64,000 nt of DNA. Source: Pseudoxanthomonas suwonensis 11-1 (GTDB lineage: Bacteria; Pseudomonadota; Gammaproteobacteria; Xanthomonadales; Xanthomonadaceae). Shown in pieces: positions 16,877 to 61,421 of this stretch (position 1 is its first letter; each line of letters begins with the position of its first letter). Both the position numbers and the translations under genes were made by a program. Where the stretch lies: NCBI RefSeq assembly GCF_000185965.1, contig NC_014924.1, positions 1,178,001-1,242,000 on the forward strand, given 5' to 3'. The notes beneath the pieces were generated by a model. That model was not told where the DNA came from and searched no databases. It saw only the letters and a list, made by a program, of their open reading frames with translations.

Positions 16877-16903
16877 GCCTCCCCCCTCCTTCCTGGCAGT
16901 ACG

Positions 16904-46903: not shown

Positions 46904-47098
46904 GCCCGCCGCCCACCGGACGCGGGTTCCGTAACCCCCCGGTCGTACGCAGGGACGCGTCGACCGGAAACTGCACGCCAGGCAAGGCGTCAGTGCAGTC
47001 CACCGCCCGGTGCGCACATGGATGTGTGGCCGGGCGGATCCTTTGCGGCCTGTCAGTGCGCCGGTACCGGCGACGGCGGGCTGGGGCACAATCGGCCC

Positions 47099-47731
47099 AT
47101 GCCCGATTTCGGTAATGCCCGCCACCTGCCGGCCCATGAGTACACGCGCGAGCGCTGGCACAACGGTGCGGGATGGACGCGCCGGATCCTGCGCCTTCCC
47201 GGCGAGCCGTGGCCGCTGGGCCTGTCCGTTGCCGAGATCGACGAACCCGCGCCGTACTCCCTGTTGCCCGGGGTCGAGCGCGAGCAGGTGCTGCTGTCCG
47301 GGGACGGGTTGCGCCTGGAGTTCGCCGACGGCGAGGTGGCCGGGCTGCTGCCGCCACACCAGCGCATCCGTTTCGATGGCGGGCGCGAGGTCCGCGGCAT
47401 CCCGCTGGATGGACCGCCGGTGCGGGCGTTCAACGTGATGTGGCGTCCGTCGGCGCTCGAGGTCACGGTCCTGCACCGGCCGCTGGTCGGCGGCATGTTC
47501 TGCTTCTGCGACCCGGACACGGCCTGGGCGATCTACCTGCTGGGCGGCACCGCGCGGGTGGCGTCGGACGGGATCGATTTCCAGCTCGATGGCGGCGACA
47601 GCGCCTGGCTGGCCTCTGCCGCGCGCCAGCGCTTCGTGGTCGATGGCGCGGGCGAGGCGTTGATGATCCGCGTCCGCGGTGCCGCCGGGGCCAAGGGCCA
47701 GGACACCAGCGGGCTGGCGACCGCGCTGTAG
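47099..47731 (+). CDS. HutD/Ves family protein
   Basis: A 210-residue cupin-like protein. Family segments are RWHNGAGWTRRILR, LGLSVAEIDEPAPYSLLPGVER, VLLSGDGLRLEF and RAFNVMWRP. Members include HutD of histidine-use operons and E. coli Ves, both of unclear biochemical role. No hut gene is nearby, so the Ves-like assignment is generic. Start ATG 47099. The 195 bp before it show no clear gene. Confidence 0.8.
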   Translation: MPDFGNARHLPAHEYTRERWHNGAGWTRRILRLPGEPWPLGLSVAEIDEPAPYSLLPGVEREQVLLSGDGLRLEFADGEVAGLLPPHQRIRFDGGREVRGIPLDGPPVRAFNVMWRPSALEVTVLHRPLVGGMFCFCDPDTAWAIYLLGGTARVASDGIDFQLDGGDSAWLASAARQRFVVDGAGEALMIRVRGAAGAKGQDTSGLATAL

Positions 47732-47788
47732 TCAAGCCGTGTCGTTGCGCTTCACGCGCCGCCGGGAGCTGTTCGCCGCAGGGGAGGC

Positions 47789-49411
47789 TCAGTACACGTC
47801 GCGGCGGTAGCGGCCCTGCTCGCGCAACGCGTCGCGCCGCCCGCTGCCGAGGATGTCCGCCAGTGCGGCGTCCACCGCCGGGGCCATGGTGTCGGCACTG
47901 CCACAGACCAGGACGGTCGCACCCTGGTCCACCCATTCGGCCAGGACCGGGCCGGCGGCGCGCAGCCGGTCCTGCACGTAAGCGCGGTCGCCTTCGCGGG
48001 AGAAGGCCAGGTCCATGCGCTCCAGCCAGCCCCCGGCCTGCCAGCGCCGCAGCTCCTCGCCGAAGAACAGGTCGCAGGCGGCGTTGCGCTCGCCGAACAA
48101 CAGCCAGTTGCGGCGCGCGCCGGCGGCGACGCGGGCGGCCAGATGCGCACGCAGGCCGGCGATGCCGGTGCCATTGCCCACCAGGACCAGCGGCGATTCC
48201 GGTGCAGGCGGATGGAAGCCCGGGTTGGCGCGCAGGCGCAGGTCGATGTTCCCGCCCACGGGCGCGTGGCGGCACAGCCAGCCGCTGCCGAGCCCTGGCG
48301 AGCCGTCCTCGCGGTAGGTCTCGCGGACCAGCAGCCGCAGCTGGCCCTCGGCCGGGATCGAGGCGATCGAGTAGGCGCGGTGCGGCAGCTGCTGCAGGCG
48401 TGCAGCCAGTACCGCCGGCGCCAGGCCGCGCGCGCCGCCGGCGTCGGGCAGCACGCTGCGTGCGAGAAGATCGGCCAGCGGCAGGCTGCCGTCGCCGGTT
48501 TCGACCACGGCAGTGCCATCCACCCCGGCCTCGGCCAGCCACGCAGCCACCTGGGCCGGCGCGTTGCGCGGACCGATCTCGGCGATATCGCCGGGCTGCC
48601 AGTCGGGCAGGGCGCCGCTGGCCGGTTGCAGCGCAAGCGCATGCGCCGGGCCGCCCTGGCTGCCGGGATTGAGCAGCTGGCGCGCGGCCAGCCGCCACGG
48701 GACATAGGCGGGCGCGCTCCAGTCGGCGCTGTCGGGATCGCCACCGATGCGGCCGACGCCGTACTGCCACTGGCGCAGCGCGGCCTCGTCGGCGTTGTCG
48801 ACTTCGACCCGGTCGAACAGCGGGCGCGCACCGCGGTCGCGCAGCCAGCCGTCCAGCTGCCGGCCGAAGGCGCAGAACGCGCTGTAGCTGCGGTCGCCGA
48901 GCGCGAGCACGGCGTACTGCAGCCGCGACAGGTCGGTGTCGGCGTCCATCCGCTGCAGGAAGCCCAGCGCGTGGTCGGGCGGGTCGCCCTCGCCGGTCGT
49001 GCTGGCCACGAACAGCGCCTGGCGGGTTGCGGCCAGGCGCGCGGCGTCGACCTCGTCCAGCGGCAGCAGCACGACGTCGCGGCCGCCGGCTCGCAGCATG
49101 CTGGCAGTGCGCTCGGCCAGGCTGCCGGCGAAGCCGGTCTGGCTGGCCCAGGCCACCAGTACTGCATTCCCGTCGTCCACGGCTGCCGCGGAGGACTGCG
49201 CGCGGCGCGCAGGACGCAGGAAGGCGAGGGTGGCCAGCAGCCAGGCGGCGCCGATGGCCACGGCCGCCCAGGCCCGGCCAGACGCAGGCGCCGCCGGCCA
49301 CCAGTCGCCGCCGTGCAGCGGCAGCAGCAGGCCTGCCGCGCCCAGCAGCAGCGCAAGCAGCGCCAGCTGGCCCGCCAGTGCGAGGCGGTTGGAGGAGGGC
49401 GAGGAACTCAT
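47789..49411 (-). CDS. membrane-anchored FMN/FAD NAD(P)H reductase (CysJ-like)
   Basis: A 540-residue diflavin reductase, often annotated sulfite reductase flavoprotein. Two membrane helices (about residues 10-31 and 47-66) precede a flavodoxin domain from residue 83 (ASQTGFAGSLAER, STTGEGDPPD, LGDRSYSAFCAFG). An FNR-like domain follows, with FAD motif RAYSIAS and NAD(P)H motif GNGTGIAGL. The anchored topology suggests it passes electrons to a membrane partner, here the PepSY protein, rather than to sulfite reductase; no cysI is present. ATGA overlap with apbE. It is the last gene of the iron cluster. Confidence 0.88.
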   Translation of the reverse strand: MSSSPSSNRLALAGQLALLALLLGAAGLLLPLHGGDWWPAAPASGRAWAAVAIGAAWLLATLAFLRPARRAQSSAAAVDDGNAVLVAWASQTGFAGSLAERTASMLRAGGRDVVLLPLDEVDAARLAATRQALFVASTTGEGDPPDHALGFLQRMDADTDLSRLQYAVLALGDRSYSAFCAFGRQLDGWLRDRGARPLFDRVEVDNADEAALRQWQYGVGRIGGDPDSADWSAPAYVPWRLAARQLLNPGSQGGPAHALALQPASGALPDWQPGDIAEIGPRNAPAQVAAWLAEAGVDGTAVVETGDGSLPLADLLARSVLPDAGGARGLAPAVLAARLQQLPHRAYSIASIPAEGQLRLLVRETYREDGSPGLGSGWLCRHAPVGGNIDLRLRANPGFHPPAPESPLVLVGNGTGIAGLRAHLAARVAAGARRNWLLFGERNAACDLFFGEELRRWQAGGWLERMDLAFSREGDRAYVQDRLRAAGPVLAEWVDQGATVLVCGSADTMAPAVDAALADILGSGRRDALREQGRYRRDVY

Positions 49412-50388
49412 GCGGCCAGGTGGCGGCGGAACGCCGGTGTCATCGCTTCCACCGGGCCGTCGGGCGTGCGGCTGACGAAGCGCGCGGCCAGGCCGTGGTC
49501 CTCGGCGAAGCGCAGGCCGGCGTCCGCGCCCATCACCGTCAGCGCGGTGGCCCAGGCATCGGCATGCATGGCATCGGTGGCAACCACGGTCACGGCGGCG
49601 GCGGCCTGGCTCACGGGCACGCCGCTGCGCGGATCGAAGCTGTGCGAGTAGCGCACGCCCTCGTGTTCGAAGTGGTGCCAACGGTCGCCGGAGGTGGCGA
49701 CCGCGGCATCGTCCAGCGCCAGTACCCGCGGCGGGAGTTCGGCCACGGGGGTGTCCAGGTCCGGCTCGGCTTCGACCAGCACCTGCCAGAGGCTGCCATC
49801 GGGCTTGCGGCCGTAGGCGCGGATCTCGCCGCCAACCTCGACCAGGGCCGCGGCAATGCCGGCGCTACGCAGGCGTTCAGCGGCAAGGTCCGCGCCGAAG
49901 CCCTTGGCGATCGCCGACAAGTCCAGCGCCAGCCCGCCGGGCTGCAGCAGCTCGCGACCCCCGGCGCGACGCTGCACGCGCTGCCAGCCGGTGCGCGCTC
50001 GGGTTTCGGCCATCAGCGCCGGCGCAGGCACCTGCAGCGGCCGGTCGCTGGCGCCGAAGCCCCACAGCTCGACCAGCGGCGCGACCGTGGGATCGAACGC
50101 GCCACCGCTTGCGGCGGCCACTTCCAGCGCCGCATCCAGCACGCGGGCGAAGGATTCCGGCAGCGCCTGCCAGGTCCCGGTGGCGGCGCGCCGGTAGCGG
50201 CTGATGTCCGAGCCGGCCTCCCAGGTGCTCATCTGCGCCACCACCTCGTCCAGCGCGTCCTGGACGATGGCGTGCAGGGCATGCAGGTCGAACGAGGGGC
50301 GCACGGCCACGCGCGCGCTCCAGCGCGTTCCCATGGTTTCGCCGCCGAGGGTCGCCAGACCCGCGGCGGACACGTGAGTGGCGCCCAT
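49408..50388 (-). CDS. apbE: FAD:protein FMN transferase (ApbE family)
   Basis: Attaches FMN covalently to Thr/Ser of target proteins outside the cytoplasm. The 326-residue protein has GETMGTRWSARV, GGAFDPTVAPLV, the FAD-binding LALDLSAIAKGFGAD and VEVGGEIRAYG, TSGDRWHHF, HSFDPRSGVP and the metal-binding region ATDAMHADAWATAL. Most ApbE proteins are lipoproteins or Sec substrates, yet no signal peptide is visible from ATG 50388. The likely substrate is the adjacent DUF2271 protein. It lies 11 bp after the DUF4198 gene. Confidence 0.92.
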   Translation of the reverse strand: MGATHVSAAGLATLGGETMGTRWSARVAVRPSFDLHALHAIVQDALDEVVAQMSTWEAGSDISRYRRAATGTWQALPESFARVLDAALEVAAASGGAFDPTVAPLVELWGFGASDRPLQVPAPALMAETRARTGWQRVQRRAGGRELLQPGGLALDLSAIAKGFGADLAAERLRSAGIAAALVEVGGEIRAYGRKPDGSLWQVLVEAEPDLDTPVAELPPRVLALDDAAVATSGDRWHHFEHEGVRYSHSFDPRSGVPVSQAAAAVTVVATDAMHADAWATALTVMGADAGLRFAEDHGLAARFVSRTPDGPVEAMTPAFRRHLAA

Positions 50389-50399
50389 CGCGGCGTGGC

Positions 50400-51263
50400 T
50401 TACTGCGGCAGGACTTCCAGGGTCGCCACGTAGCTGAGGCGGCGCTTGTTCGCCTTGGGCGCGCTGGCCCTGGCATCCTCGGTCGTCACTTCCAGCCAGT
50501 ACACGCCGGCTTGCGGGAAGGTGATGGCGACGCTGCCGTCCTTGCCGCTGGTGGCCTGGATCTCCTCCTGGGCATTGCGGTAGCGGGTCTCGCCGCGCAC
50601 CACCTCGACTTCCAGGCCAGCGGCCGGCCTGCCGTCGACGTGCAGCACGAACCGTGCTTCCTCGCCGGCGAACAGGTCGTTCGGATGGGTCACCGGCACC
50701 AGCTCCAGGCCTTCGCCCACCGGCCTGATGTCGGTGGTGCGGCCATTGGTCACGAAGGTTTCGACCCGGCCCATGGTCTCGGTGACCTGCACGTTCTGCG
50801 CGTCGGCGGGGATCTTCGTCGCCAGCTCTTCGGGTTTGGCATTGCGCAGGAAGCCGCCGCGCGGCGCGCCGGGGCCGGTCACCGGCTTGCCCTCGGCCTC
50901 GGCCTTGGCCTTCGCGGCCAGGCTCGCGGCGGTATCCCAGCTGGCCGACAGGCCACGGTTGACGTTGGCGATGCGGTAGGTGCCTTCCTGCTGCAGCTGC
51001 AGGTCGAAGGTGCTGCGGTACTTGCCGGTGCTGGCGTTCTGCAGCTGCACCTGGCTGCCGTCCGGCGCGGTGGCGACCACGTTGTCCAGGCGCATGGGCA
51101 CGTGGTCGGGGAAGAACAGCTGGTTGGACACGGCGGCGTCGAAGGTCACCCACACGTCCTGGCCGTTGACCGTGGCCTGCGAGGGCACCAGCCACTGCTT
51201 GTGCGCGGCGGCGGAGAAGGGAAGCGCCAGCGCCAGGGCGATGACGAACGCGTGCTTCTTCAT
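50400..51263 (-). CDS. DUF4198 periplasmic protein
   Basis: A 287-residue secreted protein. The signal peptide probably ends after SAAA, making H21 the new N terminus (HKQWLVPS). The fold is two beta-sandwich-like parts: the first has DVWVTFDAAVSNQLFFPDHVPMR, and the second, at about 190-285, resembles a CNA-B/Ig domain (FVLHVDGRPAAGLEVEVVRGETRYR). DUF4198 proteins are found with nickel or iron transport genes, and a metal-carrying role is suspected. It lies between the DUF2271 and apbE genes. Confidence 0.85.
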   Translation of the reverse strand: MKKHAFVIALALALPFSAAAHKQWLVPSQATVNGQDVWVTFDAAVSNQLFFPDHVPMRLDNVVATAPDGSQVQLQNASTGKYRSTFDLQLQQEGTYRIANVNRGLSASWDTAASLAAKAKAEAEGKPVTGPGAPRGGFLRNAKPEELATKIPADAQNVQVTETMGRVETFVTNGRTTDIRPVGEGLELVPVTHPNDLFAGEEARFVLHVDGRPAAGLEVEVVRGETRYRNAQEEIQATSGKDGSVAITFPQAGVYWLEVTTEDARASAPKANKRRLSYVATLEVLPQ

Positions 51264-51279
51264 GTGATGCTCCTTGGGG

Positions 51280-51792
51280 TTACTTGATCGACAGGCTGAC
51301 CGCGCCCAGCTCGCTGCTGCCCTGGGCCTTGCCGGTCTGGCTGCCCTTGGCCGGCCAGTTGAACGGGATCTTCAGCAGCTCGCGGCCGCCGACTTCGCGC
51401 ACCGCCTCGACCACCAGGGTGTACTGGCCGGCCTGCAGCTTGGCCAGACGCGGCGAGCCGGAGTCGACCTTGACCACGTGCTTGCCGACCGGGCGGGTCG
51501 GCCCGGTCACGCCGTCCACCGGCAGGTCGAGGTTGCGGCCGGACTTGCGCCACCACTGGCGCAGGTCGGGCAGCCACTTGGTGCCGTGGCCCTCGGCGGT
51601 GTCCTTCATCTGGTACCAGACCGCCAGGTCGGCCACGGCCTTGCTGTCGGCGCCCTCGATCCACACCGCCACGTACGGGCGGTGGTACTCGGCGACGTTG
51701 AGCTTCGGGATCTCGACCGTGACCTCGAGCTCGGCGGCATAGGCCGGCAGGGTCAGGAGTCCGGTCACCGCGAACAGCACTTTGGCGCGCAT
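51280..51792 (-). CDS. DUF2271 periplasmic protein with flavinylation-like motif
   Basis: A 170-residue secreted protein (signal MRAKVLFAVTGLLTLPAYAA, mature from about E21). DUF2271 hallmarks are YHRPYVAVWIEGAD and WRKSGRNLDLPVDGVTGPTRP. The segment D93-G-V-T-G-P-T99 resembles the D-G-x-T-G-A-T site that ApbE modifies, so T99 may carry FMN. Pro replaces the usual small residue before it. It lies 14 bp after the PepSY gene. A role as a periplasmic flavin electron carrier is inferred from motif and neighbours. Confidence 0.85.
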   Translation of the reverse strand: MRAKVLFAVTGLLTLPAYAAELEVTVEIPKLNVAEYHRPYVAVWIEGADSKAVADLAVWYQMKDTAEGHGTKWLPDLRQWWRKSGRNLDLPVDGVTGPTRPVGKHVVKVDSGSPRLAKLQAGQYTLVVEAVREVGGRELLKIPFNWPAKGSQTGKAQGSSELGAVSLSIK

Positions 51793-51806
51793 GGGTTGGT
51801 ACCTCG

Positions 51807-52454
51807 TCAATGGATGAAGATCAGGATCAGGACCAGCGGCACCACCAGGCCCAGGCCGACCAGCGGCCAGGTCATGCGCCGCTGCCGCGCGTGCAGGTGC
51901 AGCAGGAACAGGCCGGTGATGCAGAACACCAGGCAGGCGATGGCGAACACGTCGATGAACCAGCCCCAGGCCGGTCCGGCGTTGCGGCCCTTGTGCAGGT
52001 CGTTGAGGAACGAGACCGCGCCACGGTCGGTGCGCTCGAACTCGACCTCGCCGCTTTCGCGGTCGATGCTCAGCCAGGCGTCGGCACCGGGCGAGGGCAT
52101 GGACAGGTAGGCCTCGTCCTCCGACCACTCCGCCGGGCGCCGGCCCGCGGCGATCGACAGCTCGTCCTGCAGCCAGCCGGCGATGGCCGGCGGCAGCGGC
52201 GCATTGCCTTCGGTGGGCGCGTCGGCAAGCACGTCCAGCAGCGGTTCCGGCAGCTGCGCGGTGCGGTTGTCGACCTGCGGCTGCGCCTCGATCCGCGCGG
52301 CGTGGTTGAGGGTGATGCCGGTGGCGGTGAACAGCAGCATCCCGACCAGGCACACCGCCGAGCTGATCCAGTGCCACTGGTGCAGCGTACGCAGCCAGAA
52401 ACCACGCTTGCGCTGGGCGGATACGGGATCTTCGCGGGTCGTGGTTGCCGGCAC
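51807..52454 (-). CDS. PepSY-associated TM protein (probable haem reductase)
   Basis: A 215-residue inner-membrane protein from GTG 52454. An ATG at 52508 would add 18 residues, but it lies inside a Fur-box-like site and upstream of the likely -10 box. Helices are at about 29-49, 162-188 and 194-215, with a periplasmic PepSY-like domain between the first two. His pairs sit at both membrane faces: H25 and H28 (LHQWHW) with H186 and H188 (LLHLHA) inside, and H51 (LNHAA) with H154 (DLHKG) outside. That pattern fits two b haems, as in FoxB-like siderophore reductases. Family clear, haem inferred. Confidence 0.85.
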
Positions 52455-52481
52455 GTCTGCAGGGGGCTCGGGAGGCAGGGG

Positions 52482-52508
52482 AGTATAGCGGTCGAGAACG
52501 ATTCCCAT
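52482..52508 (-). promoter_or_regulatory. Fur-box-like operator and -10 element before PepSY gene
   Basis: On the minus strand ATGGGAATCGTTCTCGA (52492-52508) matches the GAGAAT-n-ATTCTC core with two half-sites GGGAAT and GTTCTC. TATACT (52482-52487) lies just downstream as a -10 box. No good -35 box is seen. This would give the PepSY-to-reductase genes their own iron-regulated promoter. Confidence 0.6.
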
Positions 52509-52520
52509 TCGGTTAACGCA

Positions 52521-52552
52521 CGAGGGCCCGGACGGTTGACGCCGGGCCCTCG
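52521..52552 (-). terminator. hairpin after TonB receptor gene
   Basis: CGAGGGCCCGG (52521-52531) and CCGGGCCCTCG (52542-52552) form a perfect 11-bp stem with a 10-base loop, nine bases after the receptor stop. There is no strong T-run. It may terminate part of the receptor transcript. Confidence 0.6.
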
Positions 52553-52560
52553 CGGTTCGA

Positions 52561-55032
52561 TCAGAACTGGACGTTGAGGCTGACCCAGACGCTGCGGGCC
52601 TTGTCCTTGTTGTTGTAGTCGTCCAGGAACAGCACCTCGTTGCTGCCATCGAGCCAGGTGCCGTCGCCATCGAGGTCGCGGAACTCGGTGGCGTAGGTGG
52701 TGAAGTCGCGGTCCAGCAGGTTGTTGATCCGCGCGTTGAGCGTCACCGTGTCGTTGATCTGCCAGGCGCCGCCAAGGTGCAGCACGGTGTAGTCGCGGTA
52801 GTACAGCGGCTCCTGGGTGATCGCATGCAGGCCGCGGTAACGCTTCGAGCGCGATTCGGCGGTCAGGAACAGGCCGAGGTTGTCGAGCACCTGCCAGTCC
52901 AGGGTGAGGTTGGCCATGTGCCGGGCGCTCTCGCCCAGCGGCAGGCCCTGCTGGGCGCCGCTGCGCTGCTCGCTGTCGGTCCAGGTGTAGTTGCCGCGCA
53001 GGCCGAAGGCGTCGGCGATCTGCCAGCGGCCGGCCAGTTCGGCGCCCTGGATCACCACCTTGTCGATGTTCACCGTGCGGCTGCTGTTGGCATAGCCCAG
53101 GCCGGCGTACTCGCCGGTGCCCGCGCACTCCAGGGCCAGTCCATTGCCGCAGGGTTGCGACGAGATCTTGTCGTCGAAGGTGTTGCGGAAGATGGTGGCG
53201 TTGAAGTTGTGGCCGCCCTCGTGGTGCCAGTACGCGGCCAGCTCGTAGCTGGTGCTGGTTTCCGGCCGCAGGTCGGGGTTGCCGAACATCGGCGAGGTCC
53301 CCTGGCCGCCGAAGCCGACCACGCCGTCGTACAGCTGGGTGGTCTTGGGGGTCTTGAAGCCGGTGCTGGCGCCGCCCTTGAAGGTCCAGGCTGGGCTCGC
53401 GGTGTAGACCGCGTACAGGCGCGGACTGACGTGGCTGCCGAACACCTTGTGGTCGTCGTAGCGGATGCCGCCGGTCAGCGACAGCGCTTCGGACGGCTTC
53501 CAGGTGTCCTCTGCGAACAGCGACTGCATGTCGTGCCGCTGCCGGCCGCCGGGACGGCCGGCCTCCATGCCGAACACGCCGTCGGTCAGTTCGCCGCGCA
53601 CGATCTGGGTACCGACCACGGCGATGTGCTCGCCGGCGGCCTGGAAGGGGATGTCGAGCTTGGCGTCGAGGGTGTACTGCGAGCTCTCGAGGCTGCGCTG
53701 CGGGCGCGGCAGGTAGGCCAGCAGCTGGCTGTACTGCTCCGGCGACAGGTTGGCCTGCATGATCGCCAGCTTCTGCGCCTCGGACTGGTTGTTCCAGGCG
53801 TTGGCGTTGCGGAAACCGATCGCCGCGCCGGGCGCGCAGTAGCCGCCCGCGCCGACGCTGCCGCCCAGGCTGGTGCAGGCCGCGTTCCAGACCTGCTGCA
53901 GCGACTGCCGCTCGGCCACGGTGAAGGGCAGGGTGCGGCCCTCGTTGTTGGTGTCCACGTACGCCAGCGAGACCGTGCTGTCGCCGAAGGACCAGTTGCC
54001 TTCGTGGGTCAGCGCGAAGCTGTCGCGGGTGAAGCGTTGGGTCGGGGCATAGCCGGCGCGCGGTTCGACCCGGCCGTTGTTGCCGATGCGCAGCACCGCG
54101 CCGAGGTTGTCCACCGTGCCGACCGGGTATTCCTCCACGCCCTCGTCGTTGACGCGGATGGCGTTGTCGTACTCCTGGCGCGAGGTGTCGGCGTCGAGGG
54201 TGAGCGTCTGGCTGCCGGTCGGGGTCCAGGCCAGGCTGATGCCGCCGGCCTTGTTGGTGTTGTCCACGGTCTTGCCGCCGCCGCCGAAGCCCAGGGCGCG
54301 GCTGTGGCGCTCCCCGGAGGGATCGACCACGTCGTCGTACACCGGGTTGGAGGCTTCGCGCTTGTACCAGCTGCCGCGCACGGTCAGGTCGAGGACGCCG
54401 CGGACCAGGGGGCCGGTCAGGTGGAAGTCGGCGGTGGTGTCGTCGCCGTAGGCATCGTCGGTCTCGAAGGTGCGGCCGAGGGTGACCGAGCCGGCCCAGG
54501 TGTCCAGGCCCTTGCGGGTGATGATGTTGACCACGCCGCCCATGGCGTCGGCGCCGTACAGGGTCGACATCGGACCGCGGATGACCTCGATCCGCTCGAT
54601 CGCGTCCAGCGGCGGGATGTGGTTGAACTGGTTGCCGCCGAAGGAGTTCGGGTAGATGTCGCCGTGGTTGTTCTGGCGGCGTCCGTTGACCAGGACCAGG
54701 GTGTAGTCGGCGCCCATGCCGCGCATGGAGATCGTGCCCTGGCCGGTCTTGTCGCGGGTCTCGCCGATGTCCACGCCTTCCAGGTCGCGCACGGCGTCCA
54801 GCAGGGTGATGTAGGGACGGCGGGCCAGGTCCTCGCGGGTGATCACGCTGATGCTGGCGGGCGCGTCGACGATCTTCTGCTCATAGCCGGTGGCGGTGAC
54901 CACCACGGTATTGAGGGTGCTGGGCTCGCCGGCGATGTCCGGCCCGGGCGCGGCGAGGGAGGGAGTGGCGACCAGCGCGATGCACAGCGCAAGCGGGAGG
55001 CGTGCGGGACGGAGCGGACGGAGATTGGACAT
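52561..55032 (-). CDS. TonB-dependent receptor (catecholate-siderophore/CirA-like)
   Basis: Outer-membrane receptor of 823 residues. The signal peptide ends near SLAA. The TonB box is LNTVVVTAT and the plug is [30 protein letters not shown]-like [12 protein letters not shown] closes the plug. The barrel contains the conserved [15 protein letters not shown] and NLLDRDF, and ends in the assembly signal LNVQF. It belongs to the FepA/CirA/BtuB-like group. Iron regulation is suggested by a Fur-box-like site in its promoter. The ligand, a ferric siderophore or other ferric complex, is inferred. Confidence 0.92.
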
Positions 55033-55259
55033 GTTTTCCGTATGCGGGCATGGGCCGCGCGGGCGCGGGCCCACGTGGCACTGGAATGGGAATGAGGGGC
55101 GCGGCTGGCGTCAGGGGGGCGCCGGGCAACCGGATGCGGTTGCCGGTCGGCGGAGGCCTGAATGTGCGTGCTGGCGCGGTGGGATCTGGCTCATCTCTGG
55201 AGGAGCGGCCCGGTGCCTGGATATGCCCAGGGCCCGGGACGCCCCCATCTAAGGTTGGC
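55033..55259 (-). other. long 5' leader of TonB receptor mRNA
   Basis: From the predicted promoter, about 225 untranslated bases precede ATG 55032. The region is G+C-rich with several inverted segments. A weak ACGGAAAAC ribosome site lies before the start. I could not match it to a known riboswitch; a cobalamin element was considered and not supported. Confidence 0.4.
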
Positions 55260-55265
55260 GTCGTG

Positions 55266-55294
55266 CATGATAATGATAGGGATTCTTATTTACA
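55266..55294 (-). promoter_or_regulatory. Fur-box-like promoter of TonB receptor
   Basis: On the minus strand TTGTAA (55289-55294) and TATCAT (55266-55271) are 17 bases apart. The overlapping plus-strand sequence GATAATGATAGGGATTCTT (55268-55286) matches the 19-bp Fur consensus at 14 positions, including its first ten. It is one of the few AT-rich stretches in the window. Confidence 0.75.
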
Positions 55295-55589
55295 ACGGGT
55301 CCGTCTGGGCCTGCCGGGCCAGGGCAGGCCATCAGGTGCGCCATGCGGCTGGATCGCTCCCCTGTGTCCCCGGGAGCGGTGCCAGTGCCGAGGGTCGAGC
55401 TGGAGGGGCGCACGTCGCGGCGTACCGGGACAGACCGGCGTACCGGTGTTCCGGAACATTGGTCATGGCAGGGCGTGCGGCTCGGCCCGATCCTGCTCCG
55501 CGCCCCGGCCGCGTCCATGGGACGCAGGCGTCCGCCGGCATGCGTGCCACGGCGCGCATGCCGCCTGATCCCGTGGGGAGGTAGAAGGA
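55295..55589. other. non-coding gap
   Basis: This stretch lies upstream of the receptor promoter and downstream of the Rieske gene. I see no gene, clear terminator or repeat. Open frames on both strands look like composition artefacts. Confidence 0.5.
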
Positions 55590-55922
55590 TCAGTCCCGGT
55601 CGTCGCGGGTCCAGATACCCGTGGCGTCGACCCTGACCGGGAACTTGGCGACAGGCGAGTAGGCCGGGGCGCACAGGGCGCGGCCGTCGCGCAGGTCGAA
55701 GCGGGCGCCGTGCAGGACGCACTCGATGCTGCCCTCGGCCGGATCCACCGGGCCGGCGGACAGCTCGTAGTCCTCGTGGCTGCAGCGGTCCTCGAGCGCG
55801 TACAGGTCGCCGTCGAGGTTGACCACCAGGATCGGTGCGTCGGTCACCTCGTCGAACACGGTGCGCATTTCGCCCGGCAGCAGTTCCGACGGGGCACAGA
55901 CGAAGGTCCAGGTCCCACTCAT
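55590..55922 (-). CDS. Rieske [2Fe-2S] ferredoxin-like protein
   Basis: A 110-residue protein with the Rieske cluster motifs C-x-H in EDRCSHEDYEL and C-x2-H in IECVLHGARFDL, spaced about 18 residues apart. It resembles the ferredoxin subunits of aromatic dioxygenases. No oxygenase gene is nearby. It lies at the end of the suf cluster and overlaps the GNAT gene (ATGA), so it may serve or be matured by the Fe-S machinery. Start ATG 55922. Confidence 0.9.
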   Translation of the reverse strand: MSGTWTFVCAPSELLPGEMRTVFDEVTDAPILVVNLDGDLYALEDRCSHEDYELSAGPVDPAEGSIECVLHGARFDLRDGRALCAPAYSPVAKFPVRVDATGIWTRDDRD

Positions 55923-56461
55923 GCGGCCACTCCAGCACGCAGCGGCTTCTCCAGCACCTCGAAGCGCAGGTCGTCGCGCAGCGGGACGCCGAAGCGCTCG
56001 TCGCCGTAGGGGAAGGGCTTGTGGATGCCGGTGCGGACGTAGCCGCGGCGCTCGTAGAAGGCGATCAGGCTGTCGCGCACGTCGATCACGGTCATGCGCA
56101 TGGTCGCCAGGTCCCATTCCTCGCGGGCGATGCGCTCGGCCTCGGCCAGCACGGCCTTGCCCACGCCGCCGCCCTGCAGGTCGGGGCGCACGGCGAACAT
56201 GCCGAAATAGCCGGCGCCGTCCTCCTCGGCTACGTGGGCGCAGGCCAGCAGCGCGCCGTCGCGCTCGGCCAGCAGCACGACGCTGCGCGGGCGGGCGATG
56301 TCCGCGGCCAGCACCCCGGGCTCGATGCGCTGGCCGTCAAGCAGGTCGGCCTCGGTGGTCCAGCCCTTGCGGCTGGCCTCGCCGCGGTAGGCGGAGGTGA
56401 CCAGCTCGACGATGGCGGGGATGTCGGCGGTGGTGGCGGGGCGGAAGCTCGGCATGTCCAT
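55919..56461 (-). CDS. GNAT family acetyltransferase
   Basis: A 180-residue acetyl-CoA-dependent N-acetyltransferase. The core has FRPATTADIPAIVELV at the N terminus, YFGMFAVRPDLQGGGVGKAVL (motif A, acetyl-CoA pyrophosphate binding) and LIAFYERRGYVRTG (motif B). The substrate is unknown. It lies 108 bp after sufS and overlaps the Rieske gene. A second ATG two codons in is also possible. Confidence 0.88.
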   Translation of the reverse strand: MDMPSFRPATTADIPAIVELVTSAYRGEASRKGWTTEADLLDGQRIEPGVLAADIARPRSVVLLAERDGALLACAHVAEEDGAGYFGMFAVRPDLQGGGVGKAVLAEAERIAREEWDLATMRMTVIDVRDSLIAFYERRGYVRTGIHKPFPYGDERFGVPLRDDLRFEVLEKPLRAGVAA

Positions 56462-56569: not shown

Positions 56570-57826
56570 TCAGGCGAGCAGGCGGCGGGTCTTTTCCAGC
56601 GCGGCGACGAAGCGGTCGATCTCGTCGTGCGTGTTGTAGAACGCCAGCGAGGCGCGCAGGGTCGCGGCCACGCCGAAGTACTGCAGCAGGGGATGGGCGC
56701 AATGCTGGCCCGAGCGCACGGCCACGCCTTCCAGGTCCAGCAGGGTGGCCAGGTCGTGCGCATGCGCGCCCTCGACCAGGAACGAGATCACCGCGGCCTT
56801 GCCCGGCGCGTTGCCGAAGATGCGCAGGCCGGGGATCGCCTGCAGCGCCTCGGTGGCGTGCGCCAGCAGCTCGCCCTCGCGTGCGGAGATCGCCTCCATG
56901 CCGATGTCGTCGAGGTAGTCCATGGCGGCGTGCAGGCCGACGAAGCCGGCGATGTTGGGGGTGCCGGCCTCGAACCTGTGGGGCGGGTCGTTGAACACCG
57001 TCCCTTCGAAGCTGACTTCCTTGATCATTTCGCCGCCGCCGATGAACGGCGGCATTTCCTGCAGCAGCTCGCGGCGCGCCCACAGCGCGCCGGTGCCAGT
57101 CGGGCCGCACATCTTGTGGCCGGTGACCGCGTAGAAGTCGCAGCCGATGCCGGCCACGTCCAGCCTGAGGTGCGGCGCGGCCTGGGAGCCGTCGACCACG
57201 GTCGTGATGCCGCGGCGGCGCGCCTCGCGGCAGATCTCGCGCACCGGGTTGACCGTGCCCAGCACGTTGGACACATGGGCCACGGCCAGCAGCTTCACGT
57301 CGCCGGTCATCGACCGGTACAGCGCGTCCAGGTCGAGGCTGCCGTCGGGCAGGATCTCGGCGACCCTGATCCTCGCGCCGGTGCGCTCGGCCACCAGCTG
57401 CCAAGGCACGATGTTGGCGTGGTGCTCCATGCGCGAGACCAGGATGGTGTCGCCCTGCTTCAGCCGCGGCAGCGCCCACGAGTACGCCACAAGGTTGATG
57501 GCGAAGGTGGTGCCGCTGCACAGCACCAGCTCGTCGGCGCGCACGTTGAGGAAACGCGCCAGGCGTGAGCGCGAGGCCTCGTAGGCCTCGGTGGCCTCGG
57601 TACCCAGGGCGTGCACGGCGCGGCTGACGTTGGCGTTGTGGCGGCGGTAGAACTCGTCCTGCGAGGACACCACGGCCAGCGGCTTCTGCGAGGTGTTGGC
57701 GTTGTCCAGGTAGACCAGCGGACGGCCGTGGACCTCGCGCATCAGCAGCGGGAAGTCGGCGCGCACGCGCTCCCAGTCGACCTGGCCCGGCTGGGCGGCC
57801 TCGTCCACCGCGGGCTTGCTGTTCAC
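56570..57826 (-). CDS. sufS: cysteine desulfurase SufS
   Basis: PLP enzyme that removes sulfur from cysteine for Fe-S assembly. The 418-residue protein starts at GTG 57826, overlapping sufD (GTGA). Motifs are YLDNANTSQKPLAV, LVSRMEHHANIVPW, the PLP lysine in VTGHKMCGPTGTGALW and the persulfide Cys in VRSGQHCAHPLL, with the short loop of group II desulfurases. No sufE follows in this window. Confidence 0.95.
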   Translation of the reverse strand: MNSKPAVDEAAQPGQVDWERVRADFPLLMREVHGRPLVYLDNANTSQKPLAVVSSQDEFYRRHNANVSRAVHALGTEATEAYEASRSRLARFLNVRADELVLCSGTTFAINLVAYSWALPRLKQGDTILVSRMEHHANIVPWQLVAERTGARIRVAEILPDGSLDLDALYRSMTGDVKLLAVAHVSNVLGTVNPVREICREARRRGITTVVDGSQAAPHLRLDVAGIGCDFYAVTGHKMCGPTGTGALWARRELLQEMPPFIGGGEMIKEVSFEGTVFNDPPHRFEAGTPNIAGFVGLHAAMDYLDDIGMEAISAREGELLAHATEALQAIPGLRIFGNAPGKAAVISFLVEGAHAHDLATLLDLEGVAVRSGQHCAHPLLQYFGVAATLRASLAFYNTHDEIDRFVAALEKTRRLLA

Positions 57827-59129
57827 GCCTGCACCTCGCCGTCCAGGGCCGCGGCCAGGGCCGCATCGAGCCGGGCCAGCAGCAGCTGGCGCAGGCCGTC
57901 GTCCACCATCGCCAGCAGCGGCTCGCGGCAGAAGGCCACGGTCAACAGGCGCTGGGCGTCGGGCAGGGGCACGCCGCGCGAGCGCAGGTAGAACACCGCG
58001 TTGGCATCGAGCTGGCCGACGGTGGCGCCGTGCGCGGCCTTGACCTCGTCCGCGTCGATCACCAGCACCGGCTGGGTGTCGATCTCGGCGTCGGCCGACA
58101 GCAGCAGGTTCTTGTTGGACAGGTTGGCATCGGTGCCGTCCGCGCCCGGGCGGATGTTGATGCCGCCGTGGAACACGACCCGGCTGCGGCCGTCGGCGAT
58201 GCCGCGCCACAGCAGGTCGCAGGCGGTATCGCGGGCGACATGGTCGATGCCCAGGCGGGTATCGACGTGGCGGCGGCCGCTGCCCAGCAGCACGCCGTTG
58301 GCGGTCAGGCGGGCGCCGTCGCCCTCCAGGCGCACGTTGAGCTCGTGGCGGCTGAGCGCGGCGCCCAGCTCCAGGTCGAAGCGCCGGTACTGCGCATCGC
58401 GCGCCAGCACCGCGTCGGTGCGGGCGAAGCGGCTGGCCCTGGCCGAATCGGCCTGCACCCGCGCGTGGCGGACCACGGCGCCCTTGCCGGCATGCAGGTG
58501 CAGCACGTCGTTGGACAGGTTGGCGTGTTCGCCGGCGCCGAGCTGGTGCTCGACGATGTCCAGCGCCGCGCCCTCGCGCAGGTCGATGAAGTGGCGCAGG
58601 TGCCAGGCACGGTCACCTTCCTGCGCCACGCCCACGAACACCAGGTGCAGCGGCGCCGGGAGGCGCACGCCGGCATCCAGCCGCACCACTGCGCCCTCCT
58701 CGGCGAGGGCGGCGTTGGCGCGGGCGAAGACCTCGTCGCGGCGCTCGTAGCGGCGCAGCAGGAAGTTGGCATCGCGCGGCTCGCCGCGCTCCAGCACCTG
58801 CGACAGCGCCTCGACGCTGGCACCGGCCGGCAGGCCGGCCAGGTCGCTGTGGGCGGCATCGAAGCGGCCGTTGGCGAACACCAGGCGCGGCGCCGGGATG
58901 CCTTCCAGCACGCCGGCGTCGAACGCCGGGGCGGTGGCATCGGCCGGGGCGAAGCCGCGGCGCTCAAGCGCACGCAGCGGGGTGTACTTCCAGGCTTCCT
59001 CGCGCGGGCCGGGCAGGCCGTCGGCCAGCAGCGCGTCCAGCGCGGCGCGGCGGCCCGGGCCCAGTTCCTGCGCCTCAGGCGCGCGCAGGGCATCGAAGCC
59101 CTGGCGGAACGATTCCAGCAGCGCGGCCA

Positions 59130-59130
<1 letters not shown>
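57823..59130 (-). CDS. sufD: Fe-S assembly protein SufD
   Basis: Scaffold partner of SufB. The 435-residue protein has an N-terminal helical region (EEAWKYTPLRALERRG) and the beta-helix core with LSNDVLHLHAGKGA. The conserved C-terminal SKNLLLS-like segment is NLSNKNLLLSADAEIDTQP, and KAAHGATVGQLD contains the cluster-site His. Start ATG 59130 overlaps the sufC stop by one base. Confidence 0.94.
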
Positions 59131-59894
<764 letters not shown>

Positions 59895-59914
59895 GGGATT
59901 GGGGATTCGGGATT
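59895..59914. repeat. GGGATT heptamer repeat before sufC
   Basis: Three GGGATT units spaced seven bases apart begin at 59895, 59902 and 59909, with a degenerate fourth unit (GGGATC) near 59922. The array fills the sufB-sufC gap directly in front of the sufC start codon. Similar GGGATTGGGGATT stretches are familiar from xanthomonad intergenic regions. Confidence 0.75.
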
Positions 59915-59945
59915 GGGGAGAGGGATCCGGAAGAAGGCGGCGGCC

Positions 59946-61421
<1,476 letters not shown>

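Follow-up and report, generated by a model that had tools for sequence, protein, structure and literature searches.

A Fur-linked flavin operon with an ApbE transferase lacking an export signal in Pseudoxanthomonas suwonensis 11-1

How does an exported flavoprotein receive its flavin when the transferase encoded beside it carries no export signal? The question is raised by a six-gene cluster at positions 47789-55032, minus strand, of a 64,000-nucleotide stretch of Pseudoxanthomonas suwonensis 11-1 (contig NC_014924.1, positions 1,178,001 to 1,242,000), which is called the window below. In order of transcription, the cluster encodes a TonB-dependent receptor, a PepSY membrane protein, a DUF2271 protein, a DUF4198 protein, an ApbE flavin transferase and a diflavin reductase. 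A preliminary description of the window had placed the six genes in one direction and named these families; both points are borne out, with Pfam matching every family name. NCBIfam models match the reductase, ApbE and the receptor, and none exist for the PepSY, DUF2271 and DUF4198 proteins. The cluster is real, linked to iron by motif and homology and ordinary as a system, and its interest lies in one topological question. It belongs to a known class, and the unexpected part is a signal-less ApbE beside an exported DUF2271. The preliminary description had missed the absence of an ApbE export signal, as well as the likely separate promoter of the receptor and the kinship of the DUF4198 protein to metal-binding proteins.

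A signal-less ApbE beside an exported DUF2271

The ApbE protein (326 residues, 49408..50388, minus strand; Pfam 1.2e-79) begins with MGATHVSAAGLATLGGETMGT. In the alignment with the PRK10461 ApbE model, residue 6 of the protein already corresponds to model position 29, which leaves no room for a signal peptide. No hydrophobic segment lies ahead of the catalytic domain, and neither the signal peptide nor the lipobox that marks a periplasmic ApbE was found. A signal peptide hidden behind an upstream in-frame start was considered and rejected, as no such start in the window has a hydrophobic stretch after it. The host genome is a single 3.42-Mb contig with a completeness rating of 100%, and this is the only ApbE found in it. 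It contains no FMN_bind protein, an alternative ApbE acceptor, in a search that did not extend to DUF3570 and newer substrate families. The one DUF2271 protein in the genome (170 residues, 51280..51792, minus strand; Pfam 9.9e-51) has a Sec-type signal peptide, as read from the sequence, and the motif DGVTGPT, which is of the flavinylation type. The last Thr of this motif, T99, is the predicted site of flavin mononucleotide (FMN) attachment and is invariant in 30/30 aligned DUF2271 sequences. Over 88 loci the motif reads TGPT or SGPT in 30, TGAT or SGAT in 39 and SGTT in one, and the remaining 18 were unmatched by the search pattern.

The same arrangement was looked for in relatives, for which we inspected 40 places over the cut-off in the order (Xanthomonadales), 60 loci of the phylum and 80 named loci. 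N-termini were scored by simple hydrophobicity rather than SignalP, with internal segments as controls. The cut was set at 1.9 for stretches of 10 residues, because a cut of 2.0 over 11 lost likely true DUF2271 signal peptides (47/64 pass). Loci with PepSY, DUF2271 and ApbE were counted, which left 63 of 64 in the order/phylum set (L141 fell below the score cut-offs) and 69 of 80 in the named set (nine have no ApbE match, L194 has no PepSY and L231 has an ApbE fragment); the two sets overlap, in that the DUF2271 proteins of two named loci are identical to those of loci in the first set. ApbE N-termini passed the cut in 12/63 and 9/69 cases, which is near the rate of the internal ApbE segments (28/252 and 35/275). 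The other 51/63 and 60/69 failed it, so that by this measure most ApbE proteins of the operon type have no signal peptide. By the same cut, DUF2271 N-termini passed in 56/63 and 57/69 (misses 7/63 and 12/69) and those of DUF4198 in 61/62 and 67/69. Clear exceptions, in which ApbE bears a signal or resembles a lipoprotein, are seen within part of the order and at a few other loci (L033, L036, L038, L041, L049, L055, L061 and L066; further ones are L190, L193, L202, L205 and L217). At L069, L070, L137, L139 and L141, ApbE and DUF2271 share one open frame, and the N-terminus there has a hydrophobic stretch. The fused frames of L069 and L070 are accompanied by no PepSY or reductase matches.

It is quite possible, though we stop a little short of favouring it, that in operons of this class the signal-less ApbE flavinylates DUF2271 in the cytosol, using cytosolic flavin adenine dinucleotide (FAD), before Sec export. 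FMN would go onto the short motif DxVTG(A/P)T while pre-DUF2271 is still unfolded, and Sec would then export the chain with its flavin, with neither periplasmic FAD nor periplasmic ApbE required. An exported or lipoprotein ApbE, or an ApbE fused to DUF2271 in one exported chain as at the five loci above, would be the alternative solution. A Klebsiella study reportedly argues that localisation separates cytosolic from periplasmic ApbE targets, and it is because this argument stands against the support from short tags and truncated proteins that we grade cytosolic flavinylation no higher. That support is as follows: ApbE modifies tags down to seven residues (PMC12052999), and the published test of DUF2271 flavinylation used truncated proteins in E. 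coli (PMC8238504), so modification in the cytosol is chemically possible. No statement of flavinylation before export was found in the literature searched, which did not extend to Figure 4C or the supplementary material of PMC8238504. If the signal-less ApbE is the only transferase, either FMN is attached before export or the accepted pairing of ApbE with DUF2271 is wrong for these operons. Attachment before export, if true, would change the presumed maturation site of extracytosolic flavoproteins.

Electron path, iron route and rival readings

As for the role of the operon, we consider it likely that 47789-52454 is a Fur-controlled periplasmic ferric (ferri-siderophore) reductase operon, to which the upstream receptor supplies a ferric complex, probably a catecholate. 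The path would start at the diflavin reductase (540 residues, 47789..49411, minus strand; Pfam Flavodoxin_1 and NAD_binding_1; CysJ 6efv, 2e-45), in which two N-terminal hydrophobic stretches, found by reading, precede a flavodoxin domain and a CysJ-like FAD/NAD(P)H domain, in agreement with the membrane-anchored FMN/FAD reductase described before. It matches TIGR01931 at 8.3e-66 with 222.8 of 668.15 bits, below the CysJ equivalog cut-off, and is therefore CysJ-like, not CysJ. Its domains suggest that it draws electrons via FAD and FMN from cytosolic reduced nicotinamide adenine dinucleotide phosphate (NADPH), which, judging by the CysJ residues, we take to be the donor rather than NADH.

Next in the path, the PepSY_TM_like_2 protein (about 215 residues, 51807..52454, minus strand) is predicted to have three long helices and matches PF16357 at 5.2e-86 and PF03929 at 4.3e-10; its gene lies three upstream of that of ApbE. 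Paired His residues had been noticed in it, and four are conserved: among 37 PepSY proteins from operons of this type, H28, H51 and H154 are invariant and H188 is present in at least 90%. In a wider set of 28 sequences, H28 and H154 are invariant, H51 is present in at least 90% and the fourth His falls below that. The protein is a putative two-haem electron conduit, and the conserved His would allow it to move electrons over the inner membrane via two bis-His haems. Sequence and profile searches gave no solved relative, Foldseek against the PDB gave no match under 0.001, and the structural match to FoxB (7ABW) is weak. A second PepSY_TM protein is present in the genome, which makes redundancy possible.

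DUF2271, with the covalent FMN that ApbE would attach to T99, would hand the electrons to the ferric complex; for a homologue, flavinylation at the motif Thr by the cognate ApbE is published, and a Thr-to-Ala change abolishes it (PMC8238504). The Fe(II) set free would then enter through FeoB. One FeoB is encoded in the host genome and no FecCD permease was found there, in a search of this permease family and no other that did find one in 13/14 control genomes; periplasmic reduction and ferrous uptake are therefore favoured, and the usual ATP-binding cassette route for intact siderophores looks absent. Through the cluster, xanthomonads gain a reductive route for iron that can be tested, in a genome in which no FecCD permease was found. 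The DUF4198 protein (287 residues, 50400..51263, minus strand) has a metal-binding fold, with closest structures in Zcp (PDB 9MHM) with Cu, Zn or Co. Cleavage after AxA, as read from the sequence, leaves a conserved His as mature residue 1, with H34 and H173 as other conserved His residues, and the protein probably binds or passes on the released metal at this N-terminal His. PDB entries 9MHI-9MHO (Zcp) carry the molecule name phosphoribosylglycinamide formyltransferase.

At the outer membrane, the receptor (823 residues, 52561..55032, minus strand; Pfam Plug and TonB_dep_Rec_b-barrel) is CirA/PfeA/FepA-like. Its best solved relative is the colicin I receptor (8.9e-89), followed by ferric-enterobactin receptors. 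It scores below the curated NCBIfam cut-offs for CirA (346.2 of 745 bits), CfrA (406 of 1200) and FepA. It is related to the CirA/FepA catecholate receptors, and no substrate is assigned.

The full electron chain proposed in the preliminary description fits this anatomy and comes near the published model (PMC8238504, PMC12004947). More of it is known than that description supposed, since flavinylation of DUF2271 has been demonstrated biochemically and the related Caulobacter operon CC_3059-3063 is targeted by Fur and shows a fitness phenotype with EDTA (ethylenediaminetetraacetic acid). The parts of the literature searched yielded no assay of haem, flavin or ferric reduction for a complete operon of this kind, and so the full chain is one that we infer. 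The Caulobacter genes encode a transporter, DUF2271, DUF4198, ApbE and a sulfite-reductase flavoprotein, and their expression rises strongly when iron is limiting or fur is mutated, as confirmed by lacZ fusions and electrophoretic mobility shift assays (PMC3751524). Loss of fitness with EDTA is reported for the operon (PMC12004947).

Other assignments have to be weighed against this one. Secreted DUF4198 from Ideonella binds Ni with a dissociation constant of 18 nM through an N-terminal His (PMC12537917, the main text of which has 0 counts of iron). Together with the Cu, Zn or Co of the Zcp structures, and with the Bordetella PepSY_TM protein CrpH, which is described as working, next to a TonB-dependent importer of copper, in the supply of that metal, this would suit an operon for the reduction or handling of copper or nickel instead of iron, in which DUF4198 acts as the metal chaperone. 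We regard such a role as unlikely, given the Fur-like boxes here and in relatives, the Fur-bound and iron-responsive operon of Caulobacter and the resemblance of the receptor to catecholate receptors; the promoter of the CrtA operon, moreover, is reported to have no Fur site. Slightly less likely still is a flavin-haem chain that reduces some other periplasmic acceptor (envelope redox balance or respiratory cofactors), with iron control reflecting the cost of haem and flavin. This would accord with the 21/38 five-gene loci of the order that have no receptor of the same family beside PepSY (the search covered this receptor family), and the core therefore does not need that ferric substrate. It sits poorly with the Caulobacter operon, which is controlled by Fur and affects fitness with EDTA, with the lack of FecCD in the host genome and with Alteromonas, where iron-responsive DUF4198/DUF2271 pairs are reported only near iron-responsive receptors (PMC7190382). 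Lastly, the PepSY protein might be an inner-membrane permease for intact siderophores instead of an electron conduit, as has been proposed for Alteromonas PepSY proteins (PMC7190382). We hold this to be very improbable for a protein that is short, has three helices and conserved paired His, shares its operon with genes for a diflavin reductase and an ApbE substrate, and has in FoxB a solved relative described as a haem reductase.

Transcription units and relatives

Start codons were chosen anew by reading the sequence, and the five genes from PepSY onwards are then tightly joined (PepSY-DUF2271 14 bp, DUF2271-DUF4198 16 bp, DUF4198-ApbE 11 bp, ApbE-reductase a 4-bp overlap). The junctions of 9-52 bp or overlapping given earlier for the whole cluster hold for these five genes and not for the 52-bp gap between receptor and PepSY. 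That gap fits an ATG at 52508, which lies inside a Fur-like box and upstream of TATACT; a GTG at 52454 is the likelier PepSY start and makes the gap 106 bp. Following the receptor gene is a terminator-like GC-rich inverted repeat without a T-run (52521..52552, minus strand; 11-bp stem, 52552-52542 with 52531-52521), which the terminator scan did not list. The Fur-like box (52494..52512, 12/19) comes before the PepSY gene, and a TATACT occupies 52487-52482. Since hairpin and box separate the receptor from PepSY, the receptor and the five-gene operon are likely two Fur-controlled transcription units. At the receptor promoter, a 14/19 Fur-like site (55269..55287) overlaps TTGTAA-17-TATCAT, the sole sigma-70-like promoter detected in 47500-55700 (8.2 kb).

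Fur-like sites were scored out of 19 against a Fur-box consensus. The site at 55269 is the best match in the 64 kb, the next independent one being 13/19 at 16903, outside the cluster. Five shuffles gave top scores of 11-13, a range into which the 12/19 box at 52494, taken by itself, falls. In relatives, a match of at least 11/19 lies upstream of PepSY in 104/146 regions versus 64/416 control stretches, with mean best scores of 11.4 and 9.5. By the same measure, the box of the window stands 105 bases out, and six near relatives (L154, L155, L157, L162, L034 and L042) have it at 105-109. The receptor-promoter site was not found conserved, as 3/16 relatives reach 12/19 within 350 bp. The term 'iron-regulated', used in the preliminary description, gains from these sites, from their enrichment in relatives and from the Fur-repressed Caulobacter homologue, and within this locus it stands for a motif and its conserved position.

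DUF2271 is present in 59/200 genomes of the order, and 75/397 phylum genomes pass the cut-off; judged by DUF2271, its closest relatives with a name belong to Pseudoxanthomonas (84% in P. suwonensis J47). Co-occurrence of the genes in other genomes had been put forward as a check, and it holds for the five-gene core, which is found in the same order at 38/40 loci of the order, 62/80 named loci and 15/60 phylum loci. The two other loci of the order, L069 and L070, are a different second type. A receptor of the same family adjoins PepSY in 17/40 loci of the order, all within Xanthomonadaceae, and in 24/80 named loci. Among named loci without the full set, nine have no ApbE nearby and others miss one gene or end at a contig edge. 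No ApbE match was seen at 23/60 phylum loci, with search models that were built from the order and can miss distant genes in the phylum. The full five-gene set is clearly not universal across the phylum. L200, L204, L214, L215, L219 and L221 (Stutzerimonas, Pseudomonas) have PepSY, DUF2271, DUF4198 and reductase with no ApbE match nearby. L183, titled Bacillus subtilis SK7B5, has all six Gram-negative genes with scores like those of Stenotrophomonas and is probably a mislabelled or contaminated record.

Around the cluster, SufS (TIGR01979) and SufD (TIGR01981) are encoded upstream on the same strand (56570-60516, minus), which puts Fe-S cluster assembly next to the iron cluster. A small Rieske [2Fe-2S] protein (55590-55976, minus strand) has the Suf genes on one side and the receptor promoter on the other, and a HutD-family protein (47018-47731, plus strand) converges on the 3' end of the operon.

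Comparison with known systems

The occurrence of ApbE with PepSY and DUF2271, which had been called a described one, is indeed so, as Meheust 2021 counts 3220 PepSY-like clusters, of which 2833 have DUF2271, 1500 have DUF4198 and 231 have a TonB receptor (PMC8238504). Two marks of the PepSY-like flavinylation class, PF03929/PF16357 and the DUF2271 motif, are present here, and the cluster is a further member of this published class, not a new system. It shares with those systems PF16357, DUF2271, DUF4198, ApbE, an iron context and, in some, TonB receptors. It differs in its electron donor, which is a separate anchored diflavin reductase and not a NAD-binding domain within the PepSY protein, and in its motif (TGPT here, [S/T]GA[S/T] there). 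Its ApbE has no signal peptide, whereas the ApbE used there is described as signal-peptide-truncated.

Background on PepSY_TM proteins, FoxB, HiuB and CrpH was drawn from among PMC13001220, PMC13038864, PMC12914433 and PMC11334425. FoxB is a described ferri-siderophore reductase with haem and HiuB a candidate one; both, like the protein here, are PepSY proteins of the membrane whose His haem ligands are conserved or putative. The HiuB operon is Fur-regulated and, as described, holds nothing beyond a receptor, the PepSY protein and one small membrane protein, whereas the operon here has DUF2271, DUF4198 and ApbE, all three of which are missing there. For IsDUF4198 (PDB 9GCB), the second Ni ligand is His18; mature residue 18 is Trp here, with no obvious counterpart. 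The closest parallel in gene content is Caulobacter crescentus CC_3059-3063 (CCNA_03155-03159), with the same five families in the same order behind a Fur-controlled promoter. Here a CirA-like receptor stands directly upstream, whereas the Caulobacter run of five has no receptor row in the published gene table.

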